From Longitalea luteola (GTDB taxonomy: Bacteria; Bacteroidota; Bacteroidia; Chitinophagales; Chitinophagaceae), in the NCBI RefSeq assembly GCF_017356035.1, contig NZ_JAFIQX010000004.1, positions 62,001 to 126,000 of the forward strand: DNA of 64,000 nucleotides, written 5' to 3'. The notes under the pieces were generated by a model that worked only from the letters and a program-made list of their open reading frames with translations, had not been told where the DNA came from and did no database searches. Shown piece by piece: positions 1,087 to 63,900 of this stretch (the first letter of the stretch is position 1; every line of letters starts with the position of its first letter). Both the position numbers and the translations under genes were made by a program.

Positions 1087-1318
1087 ATTAGCTAATTTGC
1101 TAATTTGCTGATGTGCTAATGAAATACAGGCTCAAGGCTGAAGGCTCAAGGCTGAAGGCTCAAGGCTGAAGGCGTAAGGAAAAACGCACAGCATTCGGCA
1201 ACCGGTAACCGGCAACCGGTAACTGGTAACCGGTAACCGGCAACTGGTAACCGGTAACCGGCAACTGGCAACCGGTAACCGGTAACTGGTAACTGATAAC
1301 CGGCAACCAGCCTCGGAA
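1087..1318. repeat. Three consecutive word arrays (8-nt, 7/14-nt, 7-nt)
   Basis: Between the bestrophin stop and the Fe-S gene start. First come 8-nt words related to GCTAATTT (about 1087-1120), then GGCTCAA/GGCTGAA alternating (1129-1173), then about 16 copies of a 7-nt word GTAACCG with GCAACCG and GTAACTG variants (1197-1313). No coding potential is supported; an open frame here only reads the repeats. Confidence 0.92.
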
Positions 1319-1319
1319 A

Positions 1320-2324
1320 TTACATTTGAATATAGTGATCGGGAACGCGGGCTGGTGGTATTTTTTCGAGCCCAAGCATTTCCTTCAGATCTATTTCGAT
1401 CGTACGGCTGATGGTACTGATGGGCACATCGTTGGCCGCGCCTTCAAAGGGGTTTTCAGTGCTCTCACCAATATCTTCCAGGGTTAAGAAGATCCAGCTT
1501 ACAATGATGCTGAAAGGAATGTTCAACCAGATAAAATGGGGGCCCAGCTTCGAGAACTCGTTGAGCATACCAAGCGGTATCAATACGGTCAAAATGCTAA
1601 AAAAGAAACGGCTGAGGGTGGAGTACTGGCGGGGGTAGGGAAAATTCTTGATGCGCTCACTGCCGCCCTGGTGATCGTAAAAGTCCTTGAGCTGTTGTTG
1701 CAATTCCAGGTATTTCAATTCGGTGATCCGGCCCTGTTCATGCAGTTGGCGAAGGTCGGCCGATTGCAGGGTGAGTATATGGGTGGCAATATTCTTTCTG
1801 TTTTTTACCGATTGCCATTCGTCTTCGGTCAAAAACTCTTTAATATCTTCTGCCAGGGTCGACTTCCATTCGGGCACCGAATAAAATTTAGCATATTCAA
1901 TGTACTGTGGACAGATCCGCGCATTTTCCCATTGTCTTTTTTCCCTGAGCTGATGGCGCAAAGCGGTGATCCAGGCCAAATGGCGGAACAGGATCCGCTG
2001 GTGGATCTCTTTCAGCAGATGTTCCTGCGGATGACGGATAAAATCAAGGGTCATGATGCCAAACGTACGGCTTGAGTTCACGATCCTGCCCCAGATCTGA
2101 CGGGCTTCCCAGGAGCGGCCATAAGTAGCATTATTGCGAAAGCCTGCGATCAACGCCGATGCTGTACCTATCAGTAAGATCGGCGGCCAGGGAATGAGGA
2201 TCCATTTTGTACCGGTAATTGCAAATACAACCGTAGGCACAACGGCCAACACAATAAGTACATAAATCTTCCTCCGTGTCCAGTATATAAATTCCTGAAG
2301 GGTATAATTTCTACCAGAATGCAT
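1320..2324 (-). CDS. Bestrophin family anion channel
   Basis: 334 residues, the normal length for bacterial bestrophins (RFP-TM family, formerly UPF0187). The N-terminal region has two hydrophobic helices followed by the family-typical stretch FRNNATYGRSWEARQIWGRI near residues 63-82. A second hydrophobic pair lies near residues 240-285, with the acidic LTLEDIGESTENPFEG segment typical of the family after it. Bacterial members form pentameric ion channels in the inner membrane; the conducted ion here is not predictable. The gene is divergent from the PyrR-like gene and its 3' end abuts the word array at 1087-1318. Confidence 0.88.
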   Translation of the reverse strand: MHSGRNYTLQEFIYWTRRKIYVLIVLAVVPTVVFAITGTKWILIPWPPILLIGTASALIAGFRNNATYGRSWEARQIWGRIVNSSRTFGIMTLDFIRHPQEHLLKEIHQRILFRHLAWITALRHQLREKRQWENARICPQYIEYAKFYSVPEWKSTLAEDIKEFLTEDEWQSVKNRKNIATHILTLQSADLRQLHEQGRITELKYLELQQQLKDFYDHQGGSERIKNFPYPRQYSTLSRFFFSILTVLIPLGMLNEFSKLGPHFIWLNIPFSIIVSWIFLTLEDIGESTENPFEGAANDVPISTISRTIEIDLKEMLGLEKIPPARVPDHYIQM

Positions 2325-2406
2325 AACAAGCAGTTTTAGCGTGGTTAATGAATGTGCATGGCAAGCAGGGTGATCCCGATCGTGTGCGACAAATTTGCAC
2401 TAAAAA

Positions 2407-2438
2407 TTGATCAGGGAGAAAATTTTCATTTAGATTTG
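2407..2438 (+). promoter_or_regulatory. Bacteroidota-type promoter for the PyrR-like gene
   Basis: TTG at 2407-2409, 21-nt spacer, then TAGATTTG at 2431-2438, matching the TAnnTTTG -7 consensus. The ATG is only 11 nt further on, so the leader would be very short. Confidence 0.55.
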
Positions 2439-2449
2439 ACCCAAAATTC

Positions 2450-2947
2450 ATGGCGCGTAATTATATACTTGATAAGGAAGCAGTAGCCCGGAAATTACAA
2501 CGAATGGCTTATGAGATCATAGAAAATAACCTGGATGAACAGCAGATCATCCTTGCCGGGATCCGGGATAACGGAAGCGCCATTGCCCGCACGATCGAAA
2601 AGCTGTTACGCTCCATAAACAGCAATATCGCCATCTGGAATATCGATATTTCCCTCGACAAAAAATCGCCGCATGATATCAGGTTGAGCGGTGAAACCGA
2701 TTTTACCGACAAAGTGATCATCGTAATTGACGATGTGGCCAACAGCGGCAGAACGATGCTGTATGCCATAAAACCATTTCTGGCCTACCTGCCTAAAAAG
2801 ATCCAGACGCTGGCACTGGTTGAACGCACGCATAAGGCCTATCCTGTAAATACCGATTATGTTGGTTTATCGGTAGCAACCACTTTACAGGAACATATTT
2901 TCGTAGAAGTGGAAGGCGATGTTATTACGGGAGCCTATATGGAATAG
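2450..2947 (+). CDS. PyrR-like phosphoribosyltransferase
   Basis: 165 residues with the PRPP-binding loop IDDVANSGRT at residues 93-102 and the flanking strands of a type I phosphoribosyltransferase fold. The order of motifs (GIRDNGSAIA near 37-46, DISLDKK near 66-72, final YVGLSVATTLQEHIFVEV) resembles PyrR, the bifunctional pyrimidine regulator/uracil phosphoribosyltransferase. No other pyrimidine gene is adjacent, so a regulatory role is not supported by context. Divergent from bestrophin; its own promoter lies just upstream. Substrate base and any RNA-binding function are inference only. Confidence 0.8.
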   Translation: MARNYILDKEAVARKLQRMAYEIIENNLDEQQIILAGIRDNGSAIARTIEKLLRSINSNIAIWNIDISLDKKSPHDIRLSGETDFTDKVIIVIDDVANSGRTMLYAIKPFLAYLPKKIQTLALVERTHKAYPVNTDYVGLSVATTLQEHIFVEVEGDVITGAYME

Positions 2948-3060
2948 GGAGAATAGAATTTCTATCATACTTTGGAAGGCACGGTTTATGCATTAGAGGA
3001 ACCGTCAAACCATAAAATTCTATAACTTCAACCTTCAACACTAACAACAAATTGAGCACT

Positions 3061-4795: not shown

Positions 4796-4955
4796 GAAGT
4801 CCGAAGTCGGAAATACGAAGTCGGAAGTCAGAAATACAAAATAAAAAAGGAACAAAGTTGACTTATATCTCCTTTGTTCCTTTTCTTATTTAAGTAATTT
4901 TTCAGCCCCCGGATTTCTGACGTCATACTTCAGACCTCCGACCTCAGACTTCGGA
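4796..4955. repeat. Facing heptamer arrays (GAAGTCN) around a terminator
   Basis: At 4796-4838 the heptamer GAAGTCN is repeated with GAAATAC variants; at 4911-4955 the reverse-complement word appears (TCAGACCTCCGACC type). The two arms face each other across the terminator at 4843-4886, making an imperfect inverted repeat of about 40 nt per arm. The same heptamer is found inside the ABC-F gene at 23742-23888. Confidence 0.9.
4843..4886. terminator. Bidirectional intrinsic terminator between mutase and OmpH genes
   Basis: Perfect stem AAGGAACAAAG / CTTTGTTCCTT with a short loop, an A-run on the left and a T-run on the right, so it can serve both convergent genes. Confidence 0.85.
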
Positions 4956-5501
4956 CTATTTCTTGGCGCCGGCGTCTTTGGCGGGTGGCGTAATGCCGAG
5001 TTTCTTATAAACCAGTGGTAAAATATCATCTGCAGCGGGGAAAGAGATCAGCTGTTCTTTGGGCAGAATATAAGCATACCCGTTCTCTTTAGCCACAGCC
5101 TGGGAGGTGGTAACCGCTTTTTCCTGGATCGGGGCCAGCAGTTCCTGCTCGTGCTGGTTCATCATTTGCTGCGCCTCCTGGTTAACGAAATTGGTCCATT
5201 TCAAATACAGTTCATTCAGCTCCTTCCGTTTAACTTCTTTTACGGCAGCCGTCATTTTTATGGAGTCAGCTACAAAGCTTTTTTGTTTGTCAACAAATGC
5301 CTGTTGGTAATCAGTACCCTGTTGAACCAGCGCTTTTTGATATTCCTGCATATCCGTTTGGGCCTTTTTGTATTCAGGCATCGCACTGATCAACTCCTGC
5401 AGGCTGATATAACCTATTTTGTTTTGTGCATTTCCCTGGAATGCATTGGCCAGCAGACCAATAGTAAAAATTAACACTATCGCTACAAATTGCCTTTTCA
5501 T
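4956..5501 (-). CDS. OmpH/Skp family periplasmic chaperone-like protein
   Basis: 181 residues. N-terminal signal peptide with hydrophobic core (VAIVLIFTIGLLANAF) and probable cleavage after a GNAQ motif near residue 26. The mature protein begins NKIGYISLQELISAMPEYKKA, the typical OmpH opening, followed by a long charged coiled-coil (residues 45-135) rich in Gln and Lys, as in the tentacles of Skp. Known family role: holding unfolded outer-membrane proteins in the periplasm. The C-terminal tail is short and Lys/Ala-rich. It lies 83 bp downstream of the Gfo/Idh/MocA gene on the same strand. Confidence 0.88.
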   Translation of the reverse strand: MKRQFVAIVLIFTIGLLANAFQGNAQNKIGYISLQELISAMPEYKKAQTDMQEYQKALVQQGTDYQQAFVDKQKSFVADSIKMTAAVKEVKRKELNELYLKWTNFVNQEAQQMMNQHEQELLAPIQEKAVTTSQAVAKENGYAYILPKEQLISFPAADDILPLVYKKLGITPPAKDAGAKK

Positions 5502-6778: not shown

Positions 6779-6784
6779 AATAAT

Positions 6785-7065
6785 AGTTTATAGTTTATTG
6801 TTTATGGTTTGTGGTTGTCCTATGTTCAGCCTCAAAAGCAAATTCATCACTCCGCATGGAAAACACCGGAATCTTAGTTTCAAAAGCAAATTCATCATTC
6901 CGCATCGAAAGCACCGGAATCCTGGTCTCAAAAGCAAATTCATCATTCCCCCAAAAGCACCGGAATCTTGGTCTCAAAAGCAAATTCATCATTCCCCCAA
7001 AAGCACCGGAATCCTGGTCTCAAAAGCAAATTCATCATTCCACAAAAGCACCGGAATCTTAGTTT
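6785..7065. repeat. Five-copy 45-48 bp tandem repeat with word-repeat edge
   Basis: Units start at 6833, 6881, 6929, 6975 and 7021 and measure 48, 48, 46, 46 and 45 bp. Each begins CAAAAGCAAATTCATCA and contains CACCGGAATC. No spacer lies between units, so it is not a CRISPR array. On the left, 7-nt words of the TAGTTTA type (6785-6810) run into a copy of GTTGTCCTATGTTCAGCCT, and a similar GTTGTCCTCAGTTCAGCCT follows the last unit near 7076-7094, giving flanking direct repeats. It fills the gap 6779-7154, which holds no supported gene. Confidence 0.93.
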
Positions 7066-7140: not shown

Positions 7141-7182
7141 TAACCTCGTTGCCTTTATGCCTTTATGCCTTTTTGCCTTTCC
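7141..7182. repeat. 8-nt TGCCTTTA word array overlapping the MFS gene 3' end
   Basis: Four to five copies of TGCCTTTA-like words cover the last codons of the MFS gene, so its final residues (RQKGIKA) are read from the repeat. Confidence 0.8.
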
Positions 7183-13187: not shown

Positions 13188-13395
13188 AAATCTCAAATCA
13201 CAAATATCAGGAACCAAATAAATCTCAAATCACAAATGACAAGAACCAAATAAATCTCAAATCACAAATGACAAGAACCAAACAAATTTCAAATCGCAAA
13301 AATCAAGAACCAAATAAATCTCAAATCACAAATATCAGGAACCAAATAAATCTCAAATCACAAATATCAGGAACCAAATAAATCTCAAATCGCTG
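13188..13395. repeat. 32-bp tandem array, six full copies plus a partial
   Basis: Units start at 13188, 13220, 13252, 13284, 13316 and 13348, with a partial copy from 13380. Each 32-mer reads as four 8-nt words (AAATCTCA, AATCACAA, ATATCAGG, AACCAAAT), so it belongs to the 8-nt word class. No spacers. At about 13457-13515 the facing complement appears in degenerate form (GGTTCTTTCAATTTGGATCTTGG). The gap 13121-13669 holds only the terminator, this array and the promoter region of the trehalose gene. Confidence 0.95.
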
Positions 13396-13669
13396 GTCTC
13401 AACACAAGATTGAATAAGGGTTGCATTATTTTTTGAGCTTGGGATCTGGAATACTGGCATTTATTTTTTGGTTCTTTCAATTTGGATCTTGGAATTTCAT
13501 TCTTGGAATTATATTAAAGCCACATTACAATCTCTTTAAATCAATCGGTTCCATCGGATTTTCCCCCTCATTGGCACTATAATTTCTTAAATAATCTACC
13601 AACCAAACTGGGCCTGATAGCAACCAACTAGCAAGCCCTTTTATTATTAATTGGTTTACTGTTTATTCT

Positions 13670-20418: not shown

Positions 20419-20530
20419 AACGCTGAACGCCTAACGCAAAACGCCTTATAGTTCATTAGTTATTCAGTTATTCAGTTCAAAAGTCATTCGTACTTTTAAA
20501 CTTAATGACAGAACTCAATAACTCAGGAAC
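20419..20530. repeat. Word arrays between convergent hutG and patatin genes
   Basis: Heptamers of the CGCnnAA type (20420-20447), then 8-nt words of the AGTTATTC type (20450-20485). A facing complement (GAACTCAATAACTCAGGAACTC) lies at 20512-20533. No separate U-tract terminator was seen in this gap. Confidence 0.85.
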
Positions 20531-20532
20531 TC

Positions 20533-23477: not shown

Positions 23478-25517
23478 TCAGCCTTTTGCTTCCAGCTCCA
23501 TTATTTTCTCAAACACCTCTTCGTACTGCTTGTTCATCCGCTGCAGTTCATCACTCACTTTTTTATAGTCAGTTTCGGTTTGTACAAATTTGTTCCTGTC
23601 GGCATAAGTGTCCGGGGCTGTCAATTGCGATTCCAGGGTTGCCTTTTGCTGATTCAGCTGGCCGATCTTTTCTTCCAGCTGCTGAAAAAGCTTTTGCTGT
23701 TTCTGCAATTCCTTCTTCAATTCTTTATTGATCGGTCCCGAAGCCTGAGGTCTGTTGTCTGAGGTCTGAGGTCTGAAGTCTGACGTCTGACTTCGGACTT
23801 CCGACTTCTGACTTCCGGCTTCTGACTTCTGATTTCGGACTTCCGACTTCTGACTTCCAGCTTCCGGTTTATGATTTCCGCCTTCCGAGCGCTGTTTCTG
23901 TCTTTCTTTCCACTCGCTCCATTCTTCGTATCCGCCGGCAAATGTTTTGATCTTGTGGTTGTCGATCTCCCAAATGGTATTGGCCACCTTCGATACAAAG
24001 TAACGGTCGTGGCTAACCAGTATAAGGCTGCCCTCGTATTTACTCAGGGCCTCTATCAATAATTCTACAGAATGAATATCCAGGTGGTTGGTAGGCTCGT
24101 CGAGCATCAGGAAATTGGCTTTGCTGATGATGGTCTTGGCCAGGGCCACGCGTGCTTTTTCACCACCGCTCAATACCTTGATCTTTTTATCAATATCATC
24201 GCCGCCGAATAAAAAACAGCCCAGCAGGTTACGCAGCTCCTGTTCGGTTTTCTGGCTGCCGGCAGCTTTCATTTCATCGAGCAGGGTATTGTTCACATCC
24301 AGCGCTTCCAGCTGGTGCTGGGCATAAAAGCTTTCTTCTACATTGTGGCCCCATTTGCGTTCGCCACTGAACGATTCGGCACCGGCAATGATGCGCAGCA
24401 GGGTAGACTTCCCTTTTCCGTTGGCGCCGATCAACGCGATCTTGTCGCCGCGGTTGATCTCTGCATGGGTATCTTCGACAATGATATTATCGCCAAACTT
24501 CTTTGTTATGTGTTTCAGTTCGCACAGTACTTTACCAGGCACTTTATCAACCTGGAAGTTAATGCGAATATTAGGTCTTTCAACGGCTACATCTTCGATG
24601 CGGTCGAGCTTTTCAAGCCGCTTCATGGCGCTTTGGGCGGCGGCAGCTTTCGATGCTTTGGCTTTGAAGCGTTCAATAAAGCGTTCCTGCTGGCGAATGT
24701 AATCCTGCTGGTTCTCGAAGGCGCGTTGCTGCAGTTCTATCCGCTGCACTTTTTCTACTTCGTAAAAGGAATAATTGCCATTATAAATGTGCAGCTGCCG
24801 CTGGTATAATTCCACGATCTTGGTCACCATGCGGTCGAGAAAATATTTATCGTGGCTCACGATCACCACCGAACCCTGATAATGGATGAGGTATTTTTCC
24901 AGCCATTCAATAGAGGGCAGGTCAAGGTGGTTGGTAGGCTCATCGAGCAGCAATAGATCGGGCGCCTGCAGGATCATTTTAGCCAGCAGCACGCGCATGC
25001 GCCAGCCTCCGCTGAACTCGCGGTAGGGGCGTTGCAGGTCGGCATTGGAGAACCCAAGGCCCTGCAATACTTCTTCTGTTTTGTGATGAATGTTATAGCC
25101 ACCCAGCGTTTCAAGTTCGTGCAGTTTGTCGGAATATTTGTGCAAGAGCACTTCCGTTTCTGCTTCTGAAATGCCGCTGGCAGGGGAATTCTCCAATTGT
25201 TTGCCCAGTTCTTCAATTTCTTTCTCCAGTTGCATTACGCGCTCGAAAGCGCCCAGCGCTACCTGTAAAATTGAATCCGAAGTATCGAAACTGAGCAGGT
25301 CCTGGTGCAGGTAGCCAATGGTAGTTCCGCGGCTCCTTTCCACCGTACCGGCCGATGCCTGGTACTGACCCACTAAAAGTTTTAACAGCGTTGATTTTCC
25401 GGTTCCGTTATAGCCAATTAATCCAATGCGTTCATTGGGTTGAATATGCCAGGTTGCGTCTTCTACAATTACCCGGGCGCCAAATTCAAAAGTTACATTC
25501 GTTAATCCTGCCAGCAT
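23478..25517 (-). CDS. ABC-F family ATPase with a repeat-encoded insertion
   Basis: 679 residues, two ABC domains and no membrane segment. Walker A motifs GYNGTGKSTLL (near 35) and GANGKGKSTLL (near 370); signatures FSGGWRMRVLLAKM and LSGGEKARVALAKT; LLLLDEPTNHLD and LMLDEPTNHLD Walker B. The linker KAAAAQSAMKRLEKLDRIED between domains and the C-terminal coiled coil (INKELKKELQKQQKLFQQLEEK onward in part) mark the Uup/EttA-like ABC-F translation factors acting on ribosomes. Between the second ABC domain and the coiled coil, about residues 543-592, lies a low-complexity stretch with seven-residue period (SQKSEVR, NQKSEAG, SQKSEVR, SQTSDFR), encoded by a heptanucleotide array. Confidence 0.93.
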   Translation of the reverse strand: MLAGLTNVTFEFGARVIVEDATWHIQPNERIGLIGYNGTGKSTLLKLLVGQYQASAGTVERSRGTTIGYLHQDLLSFDTSDSILQVALGAFERVMQLEKEIEELGKQLENSPASGISEAETEVLLHKYSDKLHELETLGGYNIHHKTEEVLQGLGFSNADLQRPYREFSGGWRMRVLLAKMILQAPDLLLLDEPTNHLDLPSIEWLEKYLIHYQGSVVIVSHDKYFLDRMVTKIVELYQRQLHIYNGNYSFYEVEKVQRIELQQRAFENQQDYIRQQERFIERFKAKASKAAAAQSAMKRLEKLDRIEDVAVERPNIRINFQVDKVPGKVLCELKHITKKFGDNIIVEDTHAEINRGDKIALIGANGKGKSTLLRIIAGAESFSGERKWGHNVEESFYAQHQLEALDVNNTLLDEMKAAGSQKTEQELRNLLGCFLFGGDDIDKKIKVLSGGEKARVALAKTIISKANFLMLDEPTNHLDIHSVELLIEALSKYEGSLILVSHDRYFVSKVANTIWEIDNHKIKTFAGGYEEWSEWKERQKQRSEGGNHKPEAGSQKSEVRNQKSEAGSQKSEVRSQTSDFRPQTSDNRPQASGPINKELKKELQKQQKLFQQLEEKIGQLNQQKATLESQLTAPDTYADRNKFVQTETDYKKVSDELQRMNKQYEEVFEKIMELEAKG
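23742..23888. repeat. GAAGTCN heptamer array inside the ABC-F coding sequence
   Basis: Read on the minus strand, about 16-20 consecutive copies of GAAGTCN and variants (GACGTCA, GACCTCA). As 3 x 7 = 21, the array stays open and gives a heptapeptide period. The same word makes the intergenic arms at 4796-4955. Confidence 0.95.
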
Positions 25518-25865
25518 AATATTTACGTCAAAATGATCTGCAAAAATAGAATAATTCGGGGCGTTTCGAAAGTTATCGCAAAAGTTGACAGCCAGAAAAT
25601 TAGAACGCGGTTATAAATACGAAAACACCTGTATATGAGCCAGTAATGTAAGGTTATTCTTTTATCTTTGGCAGTAAATAAGTCAGTAACCAGCTGCAGC
25701 CGGAAAACCGGCAGGATTATTTCGGTAAAACAAACCCAATACCCCAAAAACCGAAACACATTTTCTGTCAGACTTCGCCAACTGGCGGATTGTCCTGGTA
25801 AGTTCCCCGTCCGACCCCGGTCATCCGGGCGGGCATCTGGTCAAAATGAAATTAAAAATTTTCAG
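25518..25865. other. Divergent gap between ABC-F and DUF3347 genes
   Basis: 348 bp without a supported gene. It has a -7-like TATCTTTG at 25663-25670 reading rightwards, without a convincing -33 box. It also has the short palindrome-like GACTTCGCCAACTGGCGGA at 25771-25789, which resembles one at 50711. No 7/8-nt word array is present. Confidence 0.5.
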
Positions 25866-30715: not shown

Positions 30716-30828
30716 GTTCAAAGTTTATAGTTCAAAGTTCATGGTTCATGAGTTATTAAGTTCTTAAGTTTTTGAGTTGAAGATTAATCGCGAGCTTGAA
30801 TAACTGAATAACTAATAAACTGTATTAT
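30715..30828. repeat. Heptamer array AGTTCAA/AGTTTAT with facing arm
   Basis: Heptamers AGTTCAA, AGTTTAT, AGTTCAA, AGTTCAT follow the peptidase stop. Degenerate complement GAATAACTGAATAACTAATAAACTG lies at 30797-30822, before the convergent gene's stop. Closely similar words occur at 62178. Confidence 0.88.
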
Positions 30829-36000: not shown

Positions 36001-36105
36001 GTTACAGGTTACAGGTTGCAGGGTTCCAGGGGGTGTGTATTTTCCGGTAACTGGCAACCGGTAACTGTATTCCCTGTAACTTGCAACCTGGCACTTGTAA
36101 CTTCT
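36001..36105. repeat. Heptamer arrays (GTTACAG, GGTAACT, GTAACTT)
   Basis: Between infC and rpmI: GTTACAG GTTACAG GTTGCAG at 36001-36022, then GGTAACT GGCAACC GGTAACT at 36044-36066, then GTAACTT GCAACCT GGCACTT GTAACTT to 36103. Related to the words at 1197-1313 and 37180-37225. Confidence 0.9.
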
Positions 36106-36504: not shown

Positions 36505-36637
36505 ATTGATTTGAAAATGTGACCATTTGAAGATCTGAAGATGAAAGCCTGTTGCCAGGCGCCTTGCTTTCAGATCGACACATTTTCGAGTTGATCATTT
36601 TCAAATTAACCAATTTTCAAATTTTCAAATTATCTAA
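36505..36637. repeat. Octamer array between rpmI and rplT
   Basis: ATTTGAAA-type octamers (36508-36546) and a facing ATTTTCAA array (36580-36637) that ends 4 nt before the rplT ATG. The arms can fold over a middle region with TGTTGCCAGGCGCC. Confidence 0.9.
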
Positions 36638-37046: not shown

Positions 37047-37069
37047 TAACATTTACTTAACGCGGCAAT

Positions 37070-37225
37070 CATGAGTCGGCAATCGTCAATCGTGAATCGT
37101 GAATCGTCAATAGCCGTGGAGTATGCTGTCGCGAACCAGCCCCTGAACTTGTAACATGGAACCCCACGAAGCGGGGCAAGCTCTGTTACCCGGCAACCGG
37201 AAACTGGTTAACCGGTCACTGGAAC
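37070..37225. repeat. Heptamer arrays downstream of rplT
   Basis: CGGCAAT CGTCAAT CGTGAAT CGTGAAT CGTCAAT at 37077-37111; then GGCAACC GGAAACT GGTTAACC GGTCACT at 37191-37223. They lie in the gap 36986-37381 between the rplT terminator and the next promoter. Confidence 0.88.
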
Positions 37226-38800: not shown

Positions 38801-39256
38801 ATGAAACGATTTGCGATTTTATTAACCGTAGCTATTGCCACAACCTGTTCAGCACAGGCGCAAACAACCGAAGATTCGGTGAAAGCCACCATTAACCGGT
38901 TGTTCGAAGGCATGAAAAACGCCGATACGACTTTATTGATATCTGCATTTACCGAAGACCCCATTATGCAAACCATTGCTACCAATAAAAAGAAGCAGGT
39001 TTACATTAAGAGCGACAAGTATAAAGACTTCAAAAAGTTCATCAGCCAGCAGAAAGTGGGCGAGGCTGATGAGCGGGTTGAGTTCGAATCGATTCGCATA
39101 GACGGTCCACTCGCCATGGTATGGGCTCCGTATCAGTTCTATTATAAAGGAAAATTCCGGCATTGCGGGGTGAACTCTTTTCAACTGGTGCGCCTCGAAG
39201 ACGGCTGGAAGATCCAGTACCTGATCGATACCCGGCGGAAGAACTGCGATAAATAA
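38801..39256 (+). CDS. Secreted NTF2-like (SnoaL/DUF4440-type) protein
   Basis: 151 residues. Signal peptide MKRFAILLTVAIATTCSAQA. The mature part has the cone-shaped NTF2 pattern: VKATINRLFEGMKNADTTLLISAFTEDP (two helices and first strand), then strands RVEFESIRIDGPLAMVWAPYQFYYKGKFRHCGVNSFQLVRLEDGWKIQYLIDT, broken here only for display by its length limits: key residues are the W in VWAPY and the DGWKI near the end. Enzyme or binding role unknown. It follows the decarboxylase by 24 bp and ends at a bidirectional terminator. Confidence 0.8.
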   Translation: MKRFAILLTVAIATTCSAQAQTTEDSVKATINRLFEGMKNADTTLLISAFTEDPIMQTIATNKKKQVYIKSDKYKDFKKFISQQKVGEADERVEFESIRIDGPLAMVWAPYQFYYKGKFRHCGVNSFQLVRLEDGWKIQYLIDTRRKNCDK

Positions 39257-39410
39257 TGTGATAATTCGAGAATTTGATAATTGGATGATGGAATACATCC
39301 GATAAAAAAACTCGCGCTGTGTATACAGCGCGAGTTTTTTTATTATCGTAAGAACGCCGGGAAAGCATCACCACATCATCACATTATCACATCATCAAAT
39401 CATCACATTA
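39256..39410. repeat. Octamer arms around a bidirectional terminator
   Basis: GTGATAAT TCGAGAAT TTGATAAT at 39258-39281; facing CACATCAT CACATTAT CACATCAT CAAATCAT at 39371-39405, which runs into the stop of the convergent gene. The terminator 39304-39341 sits in the middle. Confidence 0.9.
39304..39341. terminator. Bidirectional terminator
   Basis: AAAAAAACTCGCGCTGT / ACAGCGCGAGTTTTTTT: a perfect GC-rich stem with A and T runs on either side, serving two convergent genes. Confidence 0.95.
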
Positions 39411-41265: not shown

Positions 41266-41457
41266 AACTTATGTTTTTTATTGTTTTTTAAATCTCGAAT
41301 TACGCCTATCATTTTTCAAACAGTGTACCATTGCAGAAAAAGGCCAAAAACCGGGAAGGATTGGCAGAGGCCAGGCTAAACAAACAGACATAAAGACATA
41401 TTAATGTTTAAGTTACTGACATAAATTCCGATCTGGGGTATAAATAAACTTTTTACG

Positions 41458-41465
41458 TAGTTTTG
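41458..41465 (+). promoter_or_regulatory. -7 element candidate for the bacilliredoxin gene
   Basis: TAGTTTTG fits TAnnTTTG 23 nt before the ATG; the -33 region is weak. Confidence 0.4.
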
Positions 41466-41488
41466 CGTTTCAATTAAAAAATAGTAGA

Positions 41489-41902
41489 ATGTATCCAACA
41501 GAAATAGTACTACCAATGAAAGAGGAGTTGACAGACAATGGCTTCCAGGAGCTGTTAACCCCGGAAGACGTTGATAATCAACTTAAAGCAAAAGGAACAA
41601 CACTGGTGATGATCAATTCGGTATGTGGATGTTCTGCAGGTTCTGCCCGACCCGGTGTATTAATGGCCGTAACCAATGCAGCTAAAAAACCCGATCATTT
41701 GACTACCAGTTTTGCAGGATATGATATTGATGCTGTAAAGAAATTGCGTGAGCATTTACTGCCTTATCCGCCATCTTCTCCGGCTATTGCCCTGTTTAAA
41801 GATGGCCAGCTGGTTCACTTCATCGAAAGACATATGATCGAAGGACGTCCGGCGCAATTGATCGCTCACAACCTGATGGCAGCATTCGAAGAATATTGTT
41901 AA
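41489..41902 (+). CDS. BrxA/BrxB family bacilliredoxin
   Basis: 137 residues. The active-site CGC motif (Cys46-Gly-Cys48) lies in INSVCGCSAGSARPG, as in YphP/YqiW proteins with a thioredoxin-like fold. Further conserved stretches: TSFAGYDIDAVKKLREHL and SSPAIALFKDGQLVHFIERH. Members remove bacillithiol from oxidised proteins; Bacteroidota members may use another low-molecular thiol. The protein ends in Cys. Cytoplasmic, monocistronic with an intrinsic terminator. Confidence 0.93.
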   Translation: MYPTEIVLPMKEELTDNGFQELLTPEDVDNQLKAKGTTLVMINSVCGCSAGSARPGVLMAVTNAAKKPDHLTTSFAGYDIDAVKKLREHLLPYPPSSPAIALFKDGQLVHFIERHMIEGRPAQLIAHNLMAAFEEYC

Positions 41903-41970: not shown

Positions 41971-42135
41971 TTCAACAGGCAATTGACAATAAACAATTTG
42001 CACCGCCCGTTGATAGTCGGGAATTCAGCATTATTACAACCTGGCCTGTTGTCGGTTGCCTTTTGCCGGCTGGTTCTGCGTTGGGCATATTTTAAGCAAT
42101 TGCCAATTGCAAGTTGTCAATTGCCAATTGGTTTT
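41970..42135. repeat. Heptamer array CAATTGC
   Basis: GGCAATT GACAATA AACAATT at 41978-41998 and, at 42099-42130, CAATTGC CAATTGC AAGTTGT CAATTGC CAATTGG. Between the bacilliredoxin terminator and the Lgt-like gene. Confidence 0.82.
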
Positions 42136-43498: not shown

Positions 43499-43800
43499 AC
43501 AATGTGATAATGTGACGACATGATAATCCCGACTAAAGTCGCCGACAAGTTGTGATAATGGAATACAGTTGCGCTTATCGATCGAAAACGCAAAACGATT
43601 ATAAAGAAGAGAGCCTCAGCTCCCGGTAGCCCGGATAGCGGAGGCTCTTTTTTAATTAGGTGGTACGATTCAGGGTTAGAAAAGCTCGGGTGCTGCGTTC
43701 AGCGCCTCCTGCCGGCAGGCAGGGTCTGCATTTACCGTTAAGCGTTCCGCGTTTAGCGTTTAGCGTTCCGCATTTAACGTTAAGCATTCCGCGTTATTTA
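43499..43800. repeat. Word arrays and terminator between Lgt-like gene and convergent gene
   Basis: Octamers GTGATAAT GTGACGAC ATGATAAT at 43502-43526; heptamers GTTAAGC GTTCCGC GTTTAGC GTTTAGC GTTCCGC ATTTAAC at 43736-43777, running to the next gene's stop. CCTGCCGGCAGGCAGG at 43708-43723 is a palindromic GC motif. Confidence 0.88.
43610..43655 (+). terminator. Terminator of the Lgt-like gene
   Basis: AGAGCCTC / GAGGCTCT stem with an inner GC-rich loop, followed by TTTTTT. Confidence 0.9.
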
Positions 43801-44659: not shown

Positions 44660-47119
44660 ATGAGAACCCTTCCCAACCTGTTTGCTATCATACTTTTATC
44701 AGTATCCTTGGTAGGCAGGGCACAAAACAAAACTGAATATAAACTCAGCGGAAAAGTAGGTACTGCCAGCCAATCTGTTTTGTCAGCTGCCACTGTAACG
44801 CTTTTAAGAGCCAAAGACTCGAGTGTAGTCAAGATGTCGGTATCAGATCAGGACGGGCGGTATTCGTTCAATAACCCGCCGCAGGGCCGCTACCTGATCG
44901 CTGTTTCTGCAGTAGGTTATGAAAAACAATATTCAACCCCTTTTACCTTGTCGCCTGACAACCCGGCAATAGAATTGACACCTATAATACTCATCCAGCG
45001 CACCAGAGACCTGAAGGCCGTGACGGTGAGCGCCCGCAAGCCACTGGTTGAACAGAAGATCGACCGCACGGTAGTAAATGTAGATGCATTCATTAGTAAT
45101 ACGGGCGCCAATGCCCTGGAAGCCCTGGAAAAATCGCCTGGCATCCAGGTAGACAAGGATGGCAATATCAGCCTGAAAGGCAAACAGAATGTGGTGGTGC
45201 TCATCGATGGGCGTCCGGCCTACCTTAGCGGCGCCGACCTGGCCAATATGTTAAAAGGTATGCAGGCTTCGCAGCTGGAGCAAATCGAGATCATGACCAA
45301 TCCACCGGCCAGGTTCGATGCAGCAGGCAATGCCGGTGTCATCAATATCAAAACAAAAAAGAATAAGGTAAAGGGATTTAACGGCAATATGAGCGCCGGC
45401 GTAAGTCAGGGTGTTTATTTCAAAACCAACGAAAGCCTGAGCCTCAACTACCGTAATGGCAAGGTGAACGTATTCAGCAATTACAGCTTTAACCTCAATA
45501 ACAATTTTCAGCAGTTGGAGATCTTCCGCCGGTACAAAGACGATGACGGATCAACCAATGCTATTTTTGAACAGGTGGCGTATATGAAACGGCGCAATAT
45601 GAGCAATAACCTGAAAATGGGAATGGATTATTACCTGACCGGAAAAACAACACTGGGTGTAGTGTTCAGCGGCTTTTATAACCCTGAAAGCAGCAGGAAT
45701 ACCAATACCAGTTACCTGCAGGACCCCGACTATGCGCTGGACTCCATTGCTACCGCCGGCTCTCATATTAAAGGTACCTGGAAGAATGCCAGCGTGAACC
45801 TGAATATGCGTCACCAGTTCGATTCAACCGGCCGTGAATTAACTGCTGACCTGGATTATATCGTATATGATAATGAGAATAACCAGCAATTTTTGAACAC
45901 AACCTACGAACCCAACTGGATAAAACGTTATGAAGAACAATTACAGGGCGTGTTGCCGGTGACCGTGAACATCTATTCTGCGAAGATGGACTACACGCAC
46001 CCCTTAAAAAAGAATGGCAAAATTGAAGCAGGCTGGAAAAGCAGCTATGTACAAACGGAGAACAAAGCCAACTACTACCTGTACGATGGCAGCGAATGGA
46101 TGACAGATCTTGAAAAAACGAATTACTTCGACTATAACGAGAATATCAATGCTGCTTATATAAGCCTTAACAAACAGATCACCAAAAAATGGGGTTTGCA
46201 AACCGGACTGCGTTTTGAGAATACGAACTACAAAGGGCATCAGTTTGGCAATCCGGCCAAAGGCGACTCCTCATTCAAACGCACTTATAACAGTTTGTTC
46301 CCGACTGTGTATATCAGTTATGCCGCCAATGAACATAACCAGTTTGGCATAAACTACGGCCGGCGTATCGACCGGCCGGGATATCAAAACCTGAACCCGT
46401 TCATGTTCTTCATTGACAAATTCACCTATGTTGCCGGAAATCCTTATCTACGGCCCCAATACTCGAACAACTTTGAGCTAACCCATATCTATAAAGGCAA
46501 ATTGACAACCACCCTTAACTACAGCATTACCGAAAACCTGTTCAATGAAACATTCGATCAGCTAGGTTATGCCACCGTTGTAAGGCAGGGCAATATCGGG
46601 CGCCGTGAAAATGCCGGCATCTCAGTGAATGCGAACGTACCAGTGACCAAATGGCTTACCAGCATTTTATACACCAACTATAACTATACCCGTTATTCAG
46701 GACAATTATATGGCGAGGAATTGAAAGTGGAAGCCGGTAACCTGCTCATTAGCCTGAACAACCAGTTAAACTTCAACAAAGGCTGGGGGGCCGAACTGAG
46801 TGGCTGGTACAGAAGCAAAGGTGTGGAAGGACAGATACTGCTCATGCCGATGGGGCAAATGGCTGCCGGTATCTCTAAACAGGTGCTGAAAGGCCAGGGG
46901 TCAGTGAAAGTAAATGTGCGTGACATTTTTTATACCCAGATCCCGAATGGCGACATCAACTTTAAGAACACCGAAGCCTGGTTCCGCAACACCCGTGATA
47001 CCCGGGTTGTTAATCTTACCTTTTCTTACCGCTTTGGCAAACCCATCAAAAGCACCAACGGCCAGCGGAAAAAAGGCGGCGCCAATGACGAACAAAACCG
47101 CGTTAACATAGGAAATTAA
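44660..47119 (+). CDS. TonB-dependent receptor family, outer-membrane beta-barrel protein (copy 1)
   Basis: 819 residues. Signal peptide to GRAQ, a CarboxypepD_reg-like domain at about 28-115 (LSGKVGTASQSVLSAATVTL), then a plug-like domain (KAVTVSARKPLVEQKIDRTV, NALEALEKSPGIQVD, LIDGRPAYLSG, IEIMTNPPARFDAAGNAGVI) and a barrel of the type often called outer membrane beta-barrel family (OMP_b-brl_3). The C-terminus is basic (KKGGANDEQNRVNIGN) rather than ending in Phe. Paralogous to the gene at 48056. No SusD follows. Ligand unknown. Confidence 0.88.
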   Translation: MRTLPNLFAIILLSVSLVGRAQNKTEYKLSGKVGTASQSVLSAATVTLLRAKDSSVVKMSVSDQDGRYSFNNPPQGRYLIAVSAVGYEKQYSTPFTLSPDNPAIELTPIILIQRTRDLKAVTVSARKPLVEQKIDRTVVNVDAFISNTGANALEALEKSPGIQVDKDGNISLKGKQNVVVLIDGRPAYLSGADLANMLKGMQASQLEQIEIMTNPPARFDAAGNAGVINIKTKKNKVKGFNGNMSAGVSQGVYFKTNESLSLNYRNGKVNVFSNYSFNLNNNFQQLEIFRRYKDDDGSTNAIFEQVAYMKRRNMSNNLKMGMDYYLTGKTTLGVVFSGFYNPESSRNTNTSYLQDPDYALDSIATAGSHIKGTWKNASVNLNMRHQFDSTGRELTADLDYIVYDNENNQQFLNTTYEPNWIKRYEEQLQGVLPVTVNIYSAKMDYTHPLKKNGKIEAGWKSSYVQTENKANYYLYDGSEWMTDLEKTNYFDYNENINAAYISLNKQITKKWGLQTGLRFENTNYKGHQFGNPAKGDSSFKRTYNSLFPTVYISYAANEHNQFGINYGRRIDRPGYQNLNPFMFFIDKFTYVAGNPYLRPQYSNNFELTHIYKGKLTTTLNYSITENLFNETFDQLGYATVVRQGNIGRRENAGISVNANVPVTKWLTSILYTNYNYTRYSGQLYGEELKVEAGNLLISLNNQLNFNKGWGAELSGWYRSKGVEGQILLMPMGQMAAGISKQVLKGQGSVKVNVRDIFYTQIPNGDINFKNTEAWFRNTRDTRVVNLTFSYRFGKPIKSTNGQRKKGGANDEQNRVNIGN

Positions 47120-47280
47120 GCAAAACGCACAATGCACAACGCGAACGAATGCTCAATGCTGAAGGCCAAAGGCAAACTGTCAACCCCATTTATTTCCAAA
47201 ACCTTGCGAAGATGCAACAGAAAGTGAAGGCTCAAAACCGGGAGCAGCGTCTGGCAATAAGCCTTCAGCATTAAGCTTTA
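47118..47280. repeat. Heptamer arrays downstream of TonB copy 1
   Basis: GCAAAAC GCACAAT GCACAAC GCGAACG at 47120-47147, followed by degenerate AATGCTC/AATGCTG and GAAGGCC words to about 47180; a facing GCCTTCAGCATTAAGC lies at 47261-47276. Confidence 0.82.
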
Positions 47281-50545: not shown

Positions 50546-50547
50546 CT

Positions 50548-50690
50548 AATGTGATAATAGGCTAATGTGCTAATTGCTGAAATGCCAGCAGTTCCTACAA
50601 AAACGAAACTCATGCGAAAGAGCCTTTAAGACATCTGTATTTCATTAGCACATTATCACATTAGCAAATCAGCAAATTGTTCTCTCGTTT
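50548..50690. repeat. Octamer arms GCTAATGT / CATTAGCA
   Basis: GCTAATGT GATAATAG GCTAATGT GCTAATTG at 50546-50577; facing CATTAGCA CATTATCA CATTAGCA AATCAGCA at 50643-50674. Together they make a large imperfect inverted repeat before the terminator at 50705. Confidence 0.92.
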
Positions 50691-54484: not shown

Positions 54485-54640
54485 CGTTTCCAGGAAGTAA
54501 GAGGCAGGAGATATGAGGTATGAAATGGGAGGTAAGAAAATAACTTACCTTTAAACTAATAACCAAGCTTAACCTCAATCTTCGTACTTCTTACTTCCTT
54601 CTTCATACTTCTTACTACGTACTTCCTAATTGACTGTTAA
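54485..54640. repeat. Facing word arrays downstream of tpiA
   Basis: GGAAGTAA / GAGGCAGG / AGATATGA-type words at 54491-54535, and facing CTTCGTA CTTCTTA CTTCCTT ... CTTCTTA CTACGTA CTTCCTA at 54583-54628. They make an imperfect hairpin covering most of the gap. Confidence 0.85.
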
Positions 54641-55209: not shown

Positions 55210-55262
55210 GCGAAGTACGATCTAGGGCATTGCGTTCCGCGTTAAGCCTAAGCGTTTTGCAT
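55210..55262. repeat. Short GCGTTCCGC-type word stretch
   Basis: GCATTGC GTTCCGC GTTAAGC CTAAGC GTTTTGC at 55229-55261; same words as 43736-43777. Confidence 0.75.
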
Positions 55263-61721: not shown

Positions 61722-62180
61722 ATGAGAACGGTAGACGATCTTATTGCCAGTAAACCACGTGCGGAAAACATTATTAAGCCAGATGCCTTGGTGATCGATG
61801 CCCTGCGCGAGCTCGACCAGGTAAACCTGAGTTACCTGATCGTCATGGAAGGAAATACCTACAAGGGCGTATTTTCAGAGCGTGATTACAGTCGTAATGT
61901 AGTATTAAAAGGCCGCAGCAGCAATTCGGCCAAAGTACAGGAAGTAATGACCACTGAGCTGCCGGTAGTATCGCCCCAGGATACGGTGGAGCATTGCATG
62001 ACACTGATGACAAGGAACAAAGCCCGTTACCTGGTAGCCCTCGACAACGACCAGTTCATGGGTATCATTACCATTCATGATCTGCTCAGGCTGGTGTTAG
62101 CCAATAAAGCCGAGGCGTTTGATGATACACTTGCCAACAAGTTAATTGACATTAACGAAGGGCGGGGTAGAATTTATTAG
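61722..62180 (+). CDS. CBS-domain pair protein
   Basis: 152 residues, essentially one Bateman module: CBS1 about 10-70 (SYLIVMEGNTYKGVFSERDY) and CBS2 about 75-135 (VVSPQDTVEHCMTLMTRNKA, GIITIHDLLRLVLANK). Such stand-alone modules bind AMP, ATP or SAM and regulate partner proteins; the partner is not encoded here. Divergent from the acyl-CoA-binding gene. Confidence 0.92.
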   Translation: MRTVDDLIASKPRAENIIKPDALVIDALRELDQVNLSYLIVMEGNTYKGVFSERDYSRNVVLKGRSSNSAKVQEVMTTELPVVSPQDTVEHCMTLMTRNKARYLVALDNDQFMGIITIHDLLRLVLANKAEAFDDTLANKLIDINEGRGRIY

Positions 62181-62318
62181 TTCAAAGTTTATAGTTTAAA
62201 GTTCATAGTTCCCTCCTGTAAGCCGGGAACTATGAACTCGAAACTTTGAAAACTTTGAACTTTGAACTTTGAACTGTAAACTGTGAACTGTAAATTGTGA
62301 ACTATAAACCAGCCCGCA
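62178..62318. repeat. Heptamer arrays AGTTCAA / GAACTTT in facing arms
   Basis: AGTTCAA AGTTTAT AGTTTAA AGTTCAT AGTTCCC at 62179-62213; facing GAACTTT GAACTTT GAACTGT AAACTGT GAACTGT AAATTGT GAACTAT at 62254-62303. They lie between the convergent CBS and esterase genes. Similar words occur at 30715. Confidence 0.93.
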
Positions 62319-62325
62319 GACAGGA

Positions 62326-63720
62326 TTACCAATTATCAGTTCTAAAAGGGCAAACCGGCAATCCTTCTTTCCCGAACAAATTACCCATAGCCGTATTGGT
62401 GAAGCCGTATCGTACAGCCACAGGTTCTTTCACCTGCTTGCTGGAAACAACCAGCTGGTTGTTCTCGATCTTTGTATCGGCCGGATAGAATTGACGGTCA
62501 TTGCCGGCGACATACACTTCTGTAACGGTTTTTCCCTTCACCATTAAACCGGTGGGTGCGTTATCAAATGAAATATAGGCTTTGCCTTTCTTCACTTCCA
62601 TGCTTTTGAATTCAGGACTTTTATAAACAATGCCTTCTTTCTTATAAGTTTCATGCAACGCCCAGTTGGCAAGCCGCGCGCCTACATCATGTTTATTGGT
62701 AGGATGAATGTTATTGGTATCGGCTACCAGGTCGGTAATAACAACCATGCCTGTATGCGGCAACGCCATGGATCTTGTCTGCTGTTCGCGTAACAAAGCG
62801 CCTATCAACGGGCTGTTGTATTTATATGGTGCAATTTGTACATAGTAAAAAGGAAACTCTTTATTCCACGCCTTGCGCCAGCTTTCGATCATAGTTGTAA
62901 ATAATTTGCCATAAGTGGCGGCAGTTTCCGTATTGCTTTCCCCCTGGTACCAGATAGAACCGGCAATACCATATTTCGTAATGGGTGCAATCATGGCATT
63001 ATAGGTATACCCCGGGGTAATTGGCCAGCGGGCATCGTTCTTTTGTTTGGCAGCGGCAGCCTTGAGGTCGGCATCACTGAACACCTTCTCTTCGGGCGTC
63101 CATACTTCAGCAGGTGTACCGCCCCAGCTGGCATTGATCAAACCAATAGGAACGTTCAGGTCCTGGTTCAGCTTTTTGCCAAAGAAATAACCAACGGCAC
63201 TGAAGAACTTCAGGGTATTGGAATCGCAGATGGTCCATTTGGCAGCGCAATCATCCTGCGGATGAACAGCAGTGGTCTTTGGAATATGAAAGAAGCGGAT
63301 GTTCTTATTATAGCAGGTAGGTAATTCAGCAGCGATATCGGGTAGTTTATTATAATAATTCCATTCCATATTTGACTGGCCTGAGCAAACCCATACTTCA
63401 CCGATCATTACATTTTCGAGTACAATCGGAGCCGGGGTATTGCTGCCCCAGATGGTAATGGTATAAGGCCCGCCGGCAACAGGCGTTTGTACAGAAAATT
63501 GCCAGTTGGCATCGCGTGTAGCCTTTAAAGTATCGGATCTGTTATTCCAGGAAGTAGTAATAGCAATCTTTTCACCGGGGCTGGCCCAGCCCCATAATTT
63601 TACGGATGATTGTTGCTGCAGCACCATATTGCTGCTGATGACTGCGGGCAAACGGATGGCGGCATGGGAAGCAATTACAAGCGAACAAAAGAAAAGAAGC
63701 AAAGACCATTTTTTCTTCAT
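62326..63720 (-). CDS. Sialate O-acetylesterase (SGNH hydrolase)
   Basis: 464 residues from ATG 63720 (MKKKWSLLLFFCSLVIASHA signal peptide); a Met four codons earlier is possible. An N-terminal beta-domain (LPAVISSNMVLQQQSSVKLW) precedes the SGNH core: block I VCSGQSNMEWNY with the Ser nucleophile, NASWGGTPAEVW, and IWYQGESNTETA. The His of block V is probably NIHPTNKHDVG. It removes O-acetyl groups from sialic or related acids on glycans outside the cytoplasm. Single gene; OsmC lies upstream on the same strand with a terminator between. Confidence 0.9.
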   Translation of the reverse strand: MKKKWSLLLFFCSLVIASHAAIRLPAVISSNMVLQQQSSVKLWGWASPGEKIAITTSWNNRSDTLKATRDANWQFSVQTPVAGGPYTITIWGSNTPAPIVLENVMIGEVWVCSGQSNMEWNYYNKLPDIAAELPTCYNKNIRFFHIPKTTAVHPQDDCAAKWTICDSNTLKFFSAVGYFFGKKLNQDLNVPIGLINASWGGTPAEVWTPEEKVFSDADLKAAAAKQKNDARWPITPGYTYNAMIAPITKYGIAGSIWYQGESNTETAATYGKLFTTMIESWRKAWNKEFPFYYVQIAPYKYNSPLIGALLREQQTRSMALPHTGMVVITDLVADTNNIHPTNKHDVGARLANWALHETYKKEGIVYKSPEFKSMEVKKGKAYISFDNAPTGLMVKGKTVTEVYVAGNDRQFYPADTKIENNQLVVSSKQVKEPVAVRYGFTNTAMGNLFGKEGLPVCPFRTDNW

Positions 63721-63781
63721 ATTAAATAGCAATTTTTTGAACAGAAGAAGCTTTTCGATACGAAAAGGTTGTTTGTATTAT

Positions 63782-63810
63782 AAAAAAAGCCGATGGATGT
63801 CCACCGGCTG
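63782..63810 (-). terminator. Terminator of the OsmC gene
   Basis: AGCCGATGG / CCACCGGCT stem (one mismatch) with a T-run on the minus strand (A-run 63782-63788). Confidence 0.75.
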
Positions 63811-63814
63811 AAAT

Positions 63815-63900
63815 CTATTGCAATTGACAACAGGCAAAAAATCGCAACGTTCGATCATTAGCAAGCCTTGTCAATTGCCTATTGCTAATTGTTTATTGGT
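63815..63900. repeat. Heptamer stretch TTGCTAA / TTGACAA
   Basis: CAATTGACAACAGGC at 63820-63834 and TTGCCTA TTGCTAA TTGTTTA TTGGTT at 63876-63900. The array overlaps the last codons and stop of the OsmC gene. Confidence 0.8.

Follow-up and report, generated by a model that had tools for sequence, protein, structure and literature searches.

What are the short tandem words that stand behind many genes of Longitalea luteola, and do they form one system? We analyzed 64,000 nt of the 7.30-Mb genome of this bacterium (hereafter, the window; contig NZ_JAFIQX010000004.1, positions 62,001 to 126,000, or G000:C38:62001-126000 in our genome set). A preliminary description of the window reported degenerate arrays of 7- and 8-nt words in intergenic DNA, placed all of them in gaps that contain a gene 3' end, and interpreted many of them as arms flanking terminators. 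We found that the arrays are real and recurrent and that the 7/8-nt system is genome-wide, but that the arrays are neither exclusive to 3' gaps nor strictly absent from divergent gaps, and a main use of their arms as terminator flanks is not supported. An array is a 7- or 8-nt word, with variable positions inside it, repeated approximately 2 to 16 times. We consider it an even call that the arrays form a single class of intergenic repeat, constant in format and not in text, made by a process at the DNA level, tolerated behind genes and possibly active in 3' untranslated regions (3'-UTRs).

A 7- and 8-nt step across the genome and the genus

Our own-genome sample comprises 1.664 Mb in three contigs (the window plus 1.6 Mb more), and the lag spectrum was calculated for the window and for an 800-kb sample elsewhere in the same genome. 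Genes were called with our own simple caller, which uses a hexamer model, and repeats at a given lag were detected in 14-nt windows with at least 11 matches. In the gaps of the 800-kb sample, 7 and 8 were the only lags from 3 to 13 that rose above shuffles, and multiples of the two stood out as well. Lag-7 and lag-8 cover was 73.6 and 25.9 permille in convergent gaps, 51.6 and 24.3 permille in co-directional gaps, and 25.5 and 5.4 permille in divergent gaps, with 0.8 and 0.4 permille in coding DNA and 0 to 5 permille for the other lags in gaps. Within the window, cover reached 211 and 190 permille in convergent gaps and 51 and 26 permille in co-directional gaps, while dinucleotide shuffles of the same gaps gave 0 to 5 permille. 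We found 706 gap arrays in 1.664 Mb (477 of 7 nt and 229 of 8 nt), which extrapolates to approximately 3,000 arrays per genome, and 601 of the 706 fall into twenty word families.

The relatives were grouped in one genus, labelled Niastella in our analysis, with nine genomes besides G000, the genome of the window. Two window genes that were searched had a match in all nine, and 41 to 48 of the 48 called window genes match in the eight relatives from which the window region was fetched. Syntenic DNA (68 to 69 kb per congener) was compared for eight congeners; G008 is included in the genus searches and left out of this comparison. The eight congeners have lag-7 cover of 54 to 110 permille and lag-8 cover of 24 to 59 permille, with the remaining lags from 4 to 13 at or below 9 permille. 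Outside the genus we sampled 23 to 40 kb from each of ten genomes, and nine of these gave 0 to 15 permille at lag 7 and 0 to 7 permille at lag 8, which is within small-sample noise (another lag reaches 25); outgroup G018 gave 27 and 24 permille. A further sample of 80 loci from named records included 57 Chitinophagales-like loci (20 and 5 permille at lags 7 and 8), 20 other Bacteroidota loci (19 and 24 permille, or 6 and 14 once the top gap is removed) and two Pinibacter-type loci (92 and 124 permille). Since the same two lags appear in the named-record loci, mostly at lower density, the 7/8 step is not peculiar to the genus, although its abundance largely is.

The claim of a genome-wide system with recurring words is thus borne out by the 706 arrays and by those of the eight close relatives. 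The lag autocorrelation by gap type that had been proposed gave peaks only at 7 and 8 and depleted divergent gaps in the sampled DNA, and the proposed comparison with related genomes gave arrays in all eight congeners, with words that turn over at orthologous gaps. The three points on which the preliminary description had made its case depend (excess at the two lags, depletion in divergent gaps and presence in close relatives) therefore all came out in its favor in the sampled DNA.

Location and strand polarity of the arrays

In the 1.664 Mb, arrays were found in 78 of the 175 convergent gaps, 217 of the 759 co-directional gaps and 47 of the 203 divergent gaps, at densities of 177, 95.5 and 46 bp/kb, respectively. 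Cover peaks at 186 permille 15 to 30 nt past stop codons and has its minimum, 27 permille, in the 15 nt before starts. The arrays are concentrated behind genes, as had been proposed, yet the 47 occupied divergent gaps and one in-gene array make it too strong to say that arrays always sit in gaps containing a gene 3' end; divergent gaps are depleted rather than empty. The seven divergent gaps listed as free of arrays would all be empty with a chance of approximately 0.16 at the genome rate, so the window alone cannot show exclusion. Weak detector matches of approximately 22 nt, which may be chance, occur in two of eight divergent window gaps (25518-25865 and 41266-41515).

The first sample gave 31 in-gene matches, nearly all of 20 to 30 nt, and the clear one is a GAAGTC array in an ABC-F gene. 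That array (23745-23888) is translated within the C-terminal linker, whose length and text differ in all eight relatives. GAAGTCN arrays are also listed in G267, G068 and G073, from other families of the phylum, where they are mostly long and homogeneous, while here they are short and mixed.

The arrays have a strand polarity. Among 228 sense arrays within 25 nt past a stop in our own sample, G exceeds C in 172 and C exceeds G in 44, and the corresponding counts in the relatives are 73 vs 7 of 88; control gaps without arrays past the stop gave 228 vs 287 of 576. Before starts the polarity is reversed (14 vs 58 of 74). In 38 of 283 arrays the word keeps its phase across the stop codon, compared with 21 (standard deviation [SD] 3.3) expected. 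We rejected stop-codon seeding as a general origin, as this effect is real and limited to a minority of arrays. We also rejected a function as in-frame backup stops: near stops, sense stop triplets number 0.099 per position vs 0.059 antisense, which may follow from seeding.

Facing arms and folding

An inverted partner scoring at least 30 was found in 64 of 287 gaps, compared with 10.7 (SD 2.9) when the sequence of another array-bearing gap was used, and direct copies of the same word in 52 of 287. Among 284 same-gap array pairs of the first sample, 69 are facing (7.5% of random pairs are) and 106 are direct. Our own sample and eight relatives gave 152 loci with facing pairs, and in 127 of them the G-rich arm leads; the count is 39 of 44 for convergent gaps and 14 of 19 for divergent ones. 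Since a facing pair reads identically on both strands, the G-rich-first order is a property of the unit. The hairpin format thus appears to be a feature of the element itself rather than of its site, as the G-rich arm also leads in most of the divergent gaps.

Exact complementarity extends over 20 nt at most. Among 11 GTGATAAT pairs, the arms do not match at their free first position (0.409 vs 0.407 for random), although an A/C position is common to both arms (0.69 vs 0.47). Three hand-picked window sites fold strongly relative to shuffles, with z scores of -7.1 (62178-62312, -44.4 kcal/mol), -9.4 and -5.7 (minus strand of 1121-1319), and mismatches recur along the stem. Avoidance of perfect palindromes was rejected: the own arm was worse in 90 and better in 40 cases under a biased control, and the effect was gone with a fair one. 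A Rfam scan of the window gave no matches at gathering score.

Persistence of sites and turnover of words

At 33 window gaps common to nine species, arrays are present in seven to nine species at 11 gaps, in three to six at 6 and in zero to two at 16. Occupied species-gaps number 32 of 45 convergent, 91 of 227 co-directional and 5 of 52 divergent. Where both species of a pair have arrays in an orthologous gap, the word family is the same in 78 of 348 pairs, compared with 6.6% for random gaps. The gap 62181-62325, for example, contains arrays in seven of nine species, with facing arms recognized by eye, and its AGTT-type words differ: AGTTCAA, AGTTTATG, AGTTTGTG, AGTTTTA, AGTTTAAA, AGTTATTG and AGTTCCA. 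Such swapping bears on the question whether each word is a binding site for a protein or RNA with a register of 7 or 8 nt. The fixed core and variable positions of each word would suit a binding site, but replacement at orthologous sites would hardly be tolerable for a site-specific reader and each genome has many words, and we consider this reading very unlikely.

The two arms change together between species. Complementarity within the same gap averages 25.4 within a species and 18.1 when arrays are swapped between species (n=90, p 5e-8), and scores of at least 24 are reached by 55 of 90 pairs within species vs 116 of 418 swapped pairs. Between G000 and G007, the closest relative, the word family is common in 6 of 11 orthologous gaps; over 67 gaps in 120 kb, 11 have arrays in both genomes (7 with the same word) and 9 in one only. 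A whole block is present in one and absent from the other between alignable flanks at C11:212007 and at C11:204257, with the arms at the latter recognized by eye. Likewise, a block is absent in G009 from the gap beside the aro-operon gene described below. At gap 36504, the 5' arm is found in only two of nine species (G000 and G003), and 3'-arm-like sequence is found in six of the seven others. Gain or loss of a whole hairpin is shown for single cases and not as a rule.

Relation to intrinsic terminators

Terminators were recognized with a crude pattern (a GC-rich hairpin with a run of T behind it). The claim that arms surround a terminator holds at some sites (39256, 4796) but is not the rule. 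Of the co-directional gaps of 60 to 200 nt, 55 have a terminator-like hairpin and 4 of these contain an array, vs 87 of the 312 without one (Fisher p 6e-4). By length, the occupied gaps with such a hairpin are 0 of 16 (60-120 nt), 4 of 39 (120-200 nt) and 36 of 83 (200-600 nt), and those without are 35 of 176, 52 of 136 and 75 of 151. Convergent gaps of 80 to 320 nt contain both features in 27 cases, only a terminator in 29, only an array in 30 and neither in 16. In short co-directional gaps the arrays look like alternatives to terminators, with lack of room as the other reading. We rejected the arrays as intrinsic terminators themselves, given that 40 of 202 array-bearing co-directional gaps of 60 to 600 nt have the terminator-like pattern and that the pattern is avoided below 200 nt.

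We asked whether the arrays might be selected RNA 3' elements, that is, stem-loops that halt RNA polymerase or shield the 3' ends of mRNAs, in which pairing is selected and the word is free. The 11 of 33 gaps that are occupied in seven to nine species, mostly with different words, the joint change of arms, the rarity of arrays beside terminator-like hairpins in short co-directional gaps and the strong folds at three chosen sites are consistent with this. However, a strong facing arm is found in only 64 of 287 array gaps, the same format also occurs in divergent gaps, and pairing is mainly at the level of the word, such that same-word arms of other loci fit equally. Furthermore, convergent array gaps without a terminator fold worse than gaps with neither feature, and the avoidance of terminators comes from a crude pattern and fades in gaps of 200 to 600 nt. 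We regard selection for RNA 3' elements as a possible account that falls clearly short of an even chance.

How the arrays might be made

The format is constant, the text is replaced, the polarity does not depend on the type of site, and in single cases whole blocks are gained or lost. Together these suggest that a process at the DNA level makes the repeats in hairpin format, and the position behind genes points to tolerance there with possible use as 3' stem-loops. Strand misalignment with a 7- to 8-nt step, together with inverted copying or excision at a fold-back, would create, shuffle and remove the units. Selection would remove arrays that lie within genes or directly ahead of starts, leaving them to accumulate behind genes, where they would be transcribed as 3'-UTR stem-loops and may be retained for that; in many short gaps these stem-loops would stand in for an intrinsic terminator. 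Spacing, location, polarity, word families, arm coupling and the persistence of sites with replaced words are observed; the making process, transcription of the arrays and any effect on RNA 3' ends are inferred.

The structure inside the words bears on this. Within families there are fixed positions, positions that are constant inside one array but not across arrays, and variable positions. Neighboring units are more alike overall (0.80 vs 0.69 between arrays in the largest family), a likeness that the detector requires, and they are also more alike at some variable positions, such as the first of AAACGCT (0.48 vs 0.32). In 72 arrays of at least three units from the GTGATAAT family, a fixed-pattern reading gave 0.35 vs 0.41 at the first position. 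The inner end of GTGATAAT-family arrays often runs into GRAATACAG (31785-31793 and 39290-39297), as if at a fixed array boundary. GTGATAAT arrays also lie inside tandem units of approximately 98 bp (L013, C11:145095-145507) and 60 bp (L100, C11:438573-438798), both with a TTCCGATAATCAA piece. We rejected GGAATACAG as a universal inner motif, since it occurs mostly with the GTGATAAT family.

Several observations weigh against a DNA-level origin by slippage and fold-back copying. Simple unit slippage predicts that neighbors are alike, and at some variable positions neighboring units are as unlike as units of different arrays: identity is 0.48 vs 0.55 between arrays at the last position of AAAGTTC, 0.51 vs 0.47 at a variable position of the GTGATAAT family and 0.40 vs 0.44 at one of AATGGTG. 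Such independent positions inside words are not explained by ordinary slippage and argue against recent growth purely by neighbor copying. A strong facing arm is absent from most array gaps, and only two (166040 and 212007) of the nine gaps with arrays in just one of G000 and G007 reach a facing-arm score of at least 24. Arms of the same locus fit with a score of 27.6 vs 26.5 for same-word arms of other loci (p 0.07, n=145), so no recent arm-to-arm copying is visible, and at several gaps (6764, 36986 and 50546) the arrays fit the partner of another species equally well or better. Among gaps of 80 to 320 nt without a terminator, arrays bring a modest folding gain in co-directional gaps (median z score -1.63 with arrays, n=129, vs -0.79 with none, n=208), and the order is reversed in convergent gaps (-2.44, n=30, vs -3.56, n=16).

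Alternatively, a strand-asymmetric process might write both facing arms de novo in 7/8-nt words, with units taken from a vocabulary common to the whole genome and not made by local slippage. If true, this would explain the independent variable positions, the arms that have a common word but are no copy of each other, the G-rich-first arms in divergent gaps and the persistent sites with swapped words; we nonetheless consider it improbable, the more so since not every variable position is independent. The strict 7/8 step and the variable word positions are constraints on any mechanism. With nine syntenic species, fast word turnover and partly fixed sites, both the origin of the class of intergenic repeat proposed here (slippage, copying or mobility) and any effect on RNA 3' ends are directly testable.

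A transposase gene in the aro operon

Hairpins can also be mobile, and the arrays could be elements of the REP/REPIN type moved by an IS200-like HUH transposase encoded in the aro operon. A strong match to this transposase (E 5e-20 or better) was found in all ten Niastella genomes, the gene is syntenic in the nine loci fetched with the HUH motif and Tyr kept (by eye), and the gap before it has an array in eight of nine, with a facing complement detected in five and seen by eye in three; in the ninth species this gap is 14 nt and empty. The appearance and disappearance of some facing-arm blocks would also fit mobility. By contrast, G011, outside the genus, carries this gene in its aro operon as well and has nearly no arrays (3.9 kb of gaps sampled), there are at least 20 different words with no common tag seen at the stem foot, and the family has a match in 32 of 39 relatives searched. 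These data make mobile hairpins a quite unlikely source.

This IS200/IS605-like HUH transposase gene, at C39:257267-257602 (L239 3212-3668) in G000, encodes 143 to 152 aa across the loci. It lies between genes for DAHP synthase/chorismate mutase and 3-dehydroquinate synthase (names assigned by eye) in nine Niastella loci and in G011. The protein scored 23.1 bits against the NCBIfam REP model (cut-off 80) and 54.8 against the IS200 model (cut-off 55). Each Niastella genome has one to three matches to the family, one of them strong. The transposase looks vertically inherited and domesticated.

Arrays of the window, site by site

Window repeats were listed with Tandem Repeats Finder (TRF), with a lag scan and reading by eye added (Table 1). 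Of the 17 sites cited in the preliminary description, 11 are listed by TRF at the cited place with a period of 7, 8 or 14/21/32. The sites at 39256, 36505 and 50548 were recovered with the lag scan, and TRF lists their facing arm, while those at 20420 (AACGCNN, approximately 4 copies), 43499 and 55229 (approximately 3.5 copies) were recognized by eye only. Our list has two further arrays, one at 6783-6816 and one at 7150-7180, besides that inside the ABC-F gene (23745-23888). A 46-bp repeat (CTCAAAAGCAAATTCATCATTCC...) in five copies at 6831-7060 adjoins heptamer arrays, and G007 has repeats related to it with GTTTATG-type arrays between them.

Table 1. Arrays, arms and enclosed hairpins in the window (window positions).
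Positions	Strand	Feature	Source
1083-1120		8-nt array GCTAATTT, then GAAATACAG	TRF, period 8, 4.8 copies
1128-1179		7-nt array GGCTCAA/GGCTGAA, 14-nt higher period	TRF
1196-1308		7-nt array GGTAACC/GGCAACT, 16 copies, near self-complementary	TRF
4796-4837	+	5' arm, 7-nt GAAGTCN	TRF
4843-4886		Terminator-like hairpin between GAAGTCN arms; recognizable in G007, G003	By eye
4915-4957	-	3' arm, complement of GAAGTCN	TRF
6783-6816		7-nt array GTTTATG	TRF
7150-7180		8-nt array TGCCTTTA across gene 3' end	TRF
13188-13391		32-nt unit of 7/8-nt words AAATCTCA, 6.4 copies	TRF
13467-13510		Array TTTGGTTCTTGGAA, same gap as 13188-13391	TRF
20419-20446	+	Weak 7-nt AACGCNN array directly past stop codon	By eye; absent from TRF list
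20449-20481 (TRF 20458-20477)	+	5' arm, 8-nt AGTTATTC	TRF, by eye, lag scan
20510-20532	-	3' arm, 8-nt complement of 20449-20481	TRF
23745-23888	-	144-bp GAAGTC 7-nt array in ABC-F ATPase coding sequence (open reading frame 23478-25517)	TRF, lag scan
30714-30778	+	5' arm, AGTTCAA (7) then AGTTATTA (8)	TRF
30797-30818	-	3' arm TGAATAAC	TRF
31750-31785	+	5' arm, 8-nt GTGATAAT, then GGAATACAG	TRF
31848-31874	-	3' arm, 8-nt complement of 31750-31785	TRF
36001-36022	+	7-nt array GTTACAG	TRF; then GGTAACT words and facing complement to ~36108 by eye
36505-36531	+	5' arm, 8-nt ATTTGAAA	Lag scan, by eye
36597-36631	-	3' arm facing 36505-36531	TRF
37066-37111		7-nt array CGTGAAT/CGTCAAT	TRF
39253-39289	+	5' arm, 8-nt GTGATAAT	Lag scan
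39301-39344		Perfect 20-bp terminator hairpin within GTGATAAT arms	Folding
39366-39408	-	3' arm, 8-nt, facing 39253-39289	TRF, folding
42097-42130		7-nt array CAATTGC around palindrome CAATTG	TRF
43499-43530	+	GTGATAAT words, under detection threshold	By eye
43731-43796	-	7-nt array GCGTTNN (AACGCNN on strand of gene ending there)	TRF
47118-47160	+	Weak AACGCNN/AAGGCNN words past stop codon	By eye and species comparison
50546-50574	+	5' arm, 8-nt GCTAATGT/GTGATAAT; gap with arrays in 9/9 species	Lag scan
50643-50678	-	3' arm, CTGTATTTC before it	TRF
54580-54628	-	3' arm, 7-nt CTTCTTA	TRF; weak GAAGTAAGAGG words at ~54490-54535 face it, by eye
55229-55258		Weak GCGTTNN words, under detection threshold	By eye
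62178-62211	+	5' arm, 7-nt AGTTCAA, first bases within stop codon TAG	TRF
62227-62309	-	3' arm, 7-nt TGAACTT	TRF

Comparison with known repeat systems

REP/REPIN elements are extragenic hairpins present in many copies, with a conserved palindrome family, a fixed 5' tag and RAYT transposases. The arrays share with them the many extragenic hairpins and the existence of an HUH transposase gene in the genus, but they have many unrelated words and no conserved palindrome or tag was seen; the GRAATACAG end occurs mostly with one family. STRR are degenerate intergenic heptamer arrays of filamentous cyanobacteria. Our arrays are also degenerate intergenic heptamers, in a host group other than filamentous cyanobacteria, and we know of no mixed 7/8-nt words or paired arms among STRR.

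A heptamer excess is known in bacteria. The accessible parts of two reports give one proposed cause for it, namely how long a stretch of DNA the polymerase contacts, and no demonstrated function (PMC4692102, PMC4679880). As described in both, Mrazek 2007 found 7 nt to be the commonest unit of long simple sequence repeats in most genomes and proposed slippage tied to polymerase contact; those repeats, as described there, have a fixed unit, while ours are degenerate with a second sharp class of 8 nt. The TAACTGA heptamers (MacGregor 2015) of Beggiatoaceae, cyanobacteria and five Bacteroidetes are likewise intergenic 7-nt tandem words, but they consist of one word that in the main genome is mostly just upstream of starts and not behind stops, and the accessible text mentions only one indirect repeat (PMC4679880). 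Among the papers listed in a search that left out most subscription journals, we found no description of the 7/8-nt system beyond PMC4692102 and PMC4679880.

The likeness to cyanobacterial STRR that had been drawn earlier is reasonable, but a closer parallel, as far as the accessible part of the paper goes, is the inverted GGGAATC arrays of Xanthomonas (PMC4692102). Xanthomonas and Nostoc have intergenic heptamer repeats, GGGAATC and GGGGA(C/T)T (Rehm 2015), with no functional role identified in that text; in two species of Xanthomonas, their convergent inverted pairs number 70 and 75 (PMC4692102). In common with the GGGAATC repeats, our arrays are intergenic, are G-rich in sense past stops and antisense before starts, are fewer in divergent gaps and form convergent inverted pairs (PMC4692102); the 7-nt unit is that of 477 of our 706 arrays, the other 229 being a separate 8-nt class. 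Since the 7-nt unit of most arrays, the polarity, the bias to gene 3' ends, the depletion in divergent gaps and the convergent pairs are found in both, the arrays are of a kind already known. Neither GGG nor CCC occurs in the 20 family consensus words, also when read cyclically, so the quadruplex-capable GGG/GGGG tract of the Xanthomonas/Nostoc type is absent from them. Unlike the GGGAATC repeats as that text presents them, the arrays here comprise at least 20 word families, combine 7 and 8 nt, and have their words replaced between species; the differences are thus in vocabulary, in the 8-nt class and in word turnover.

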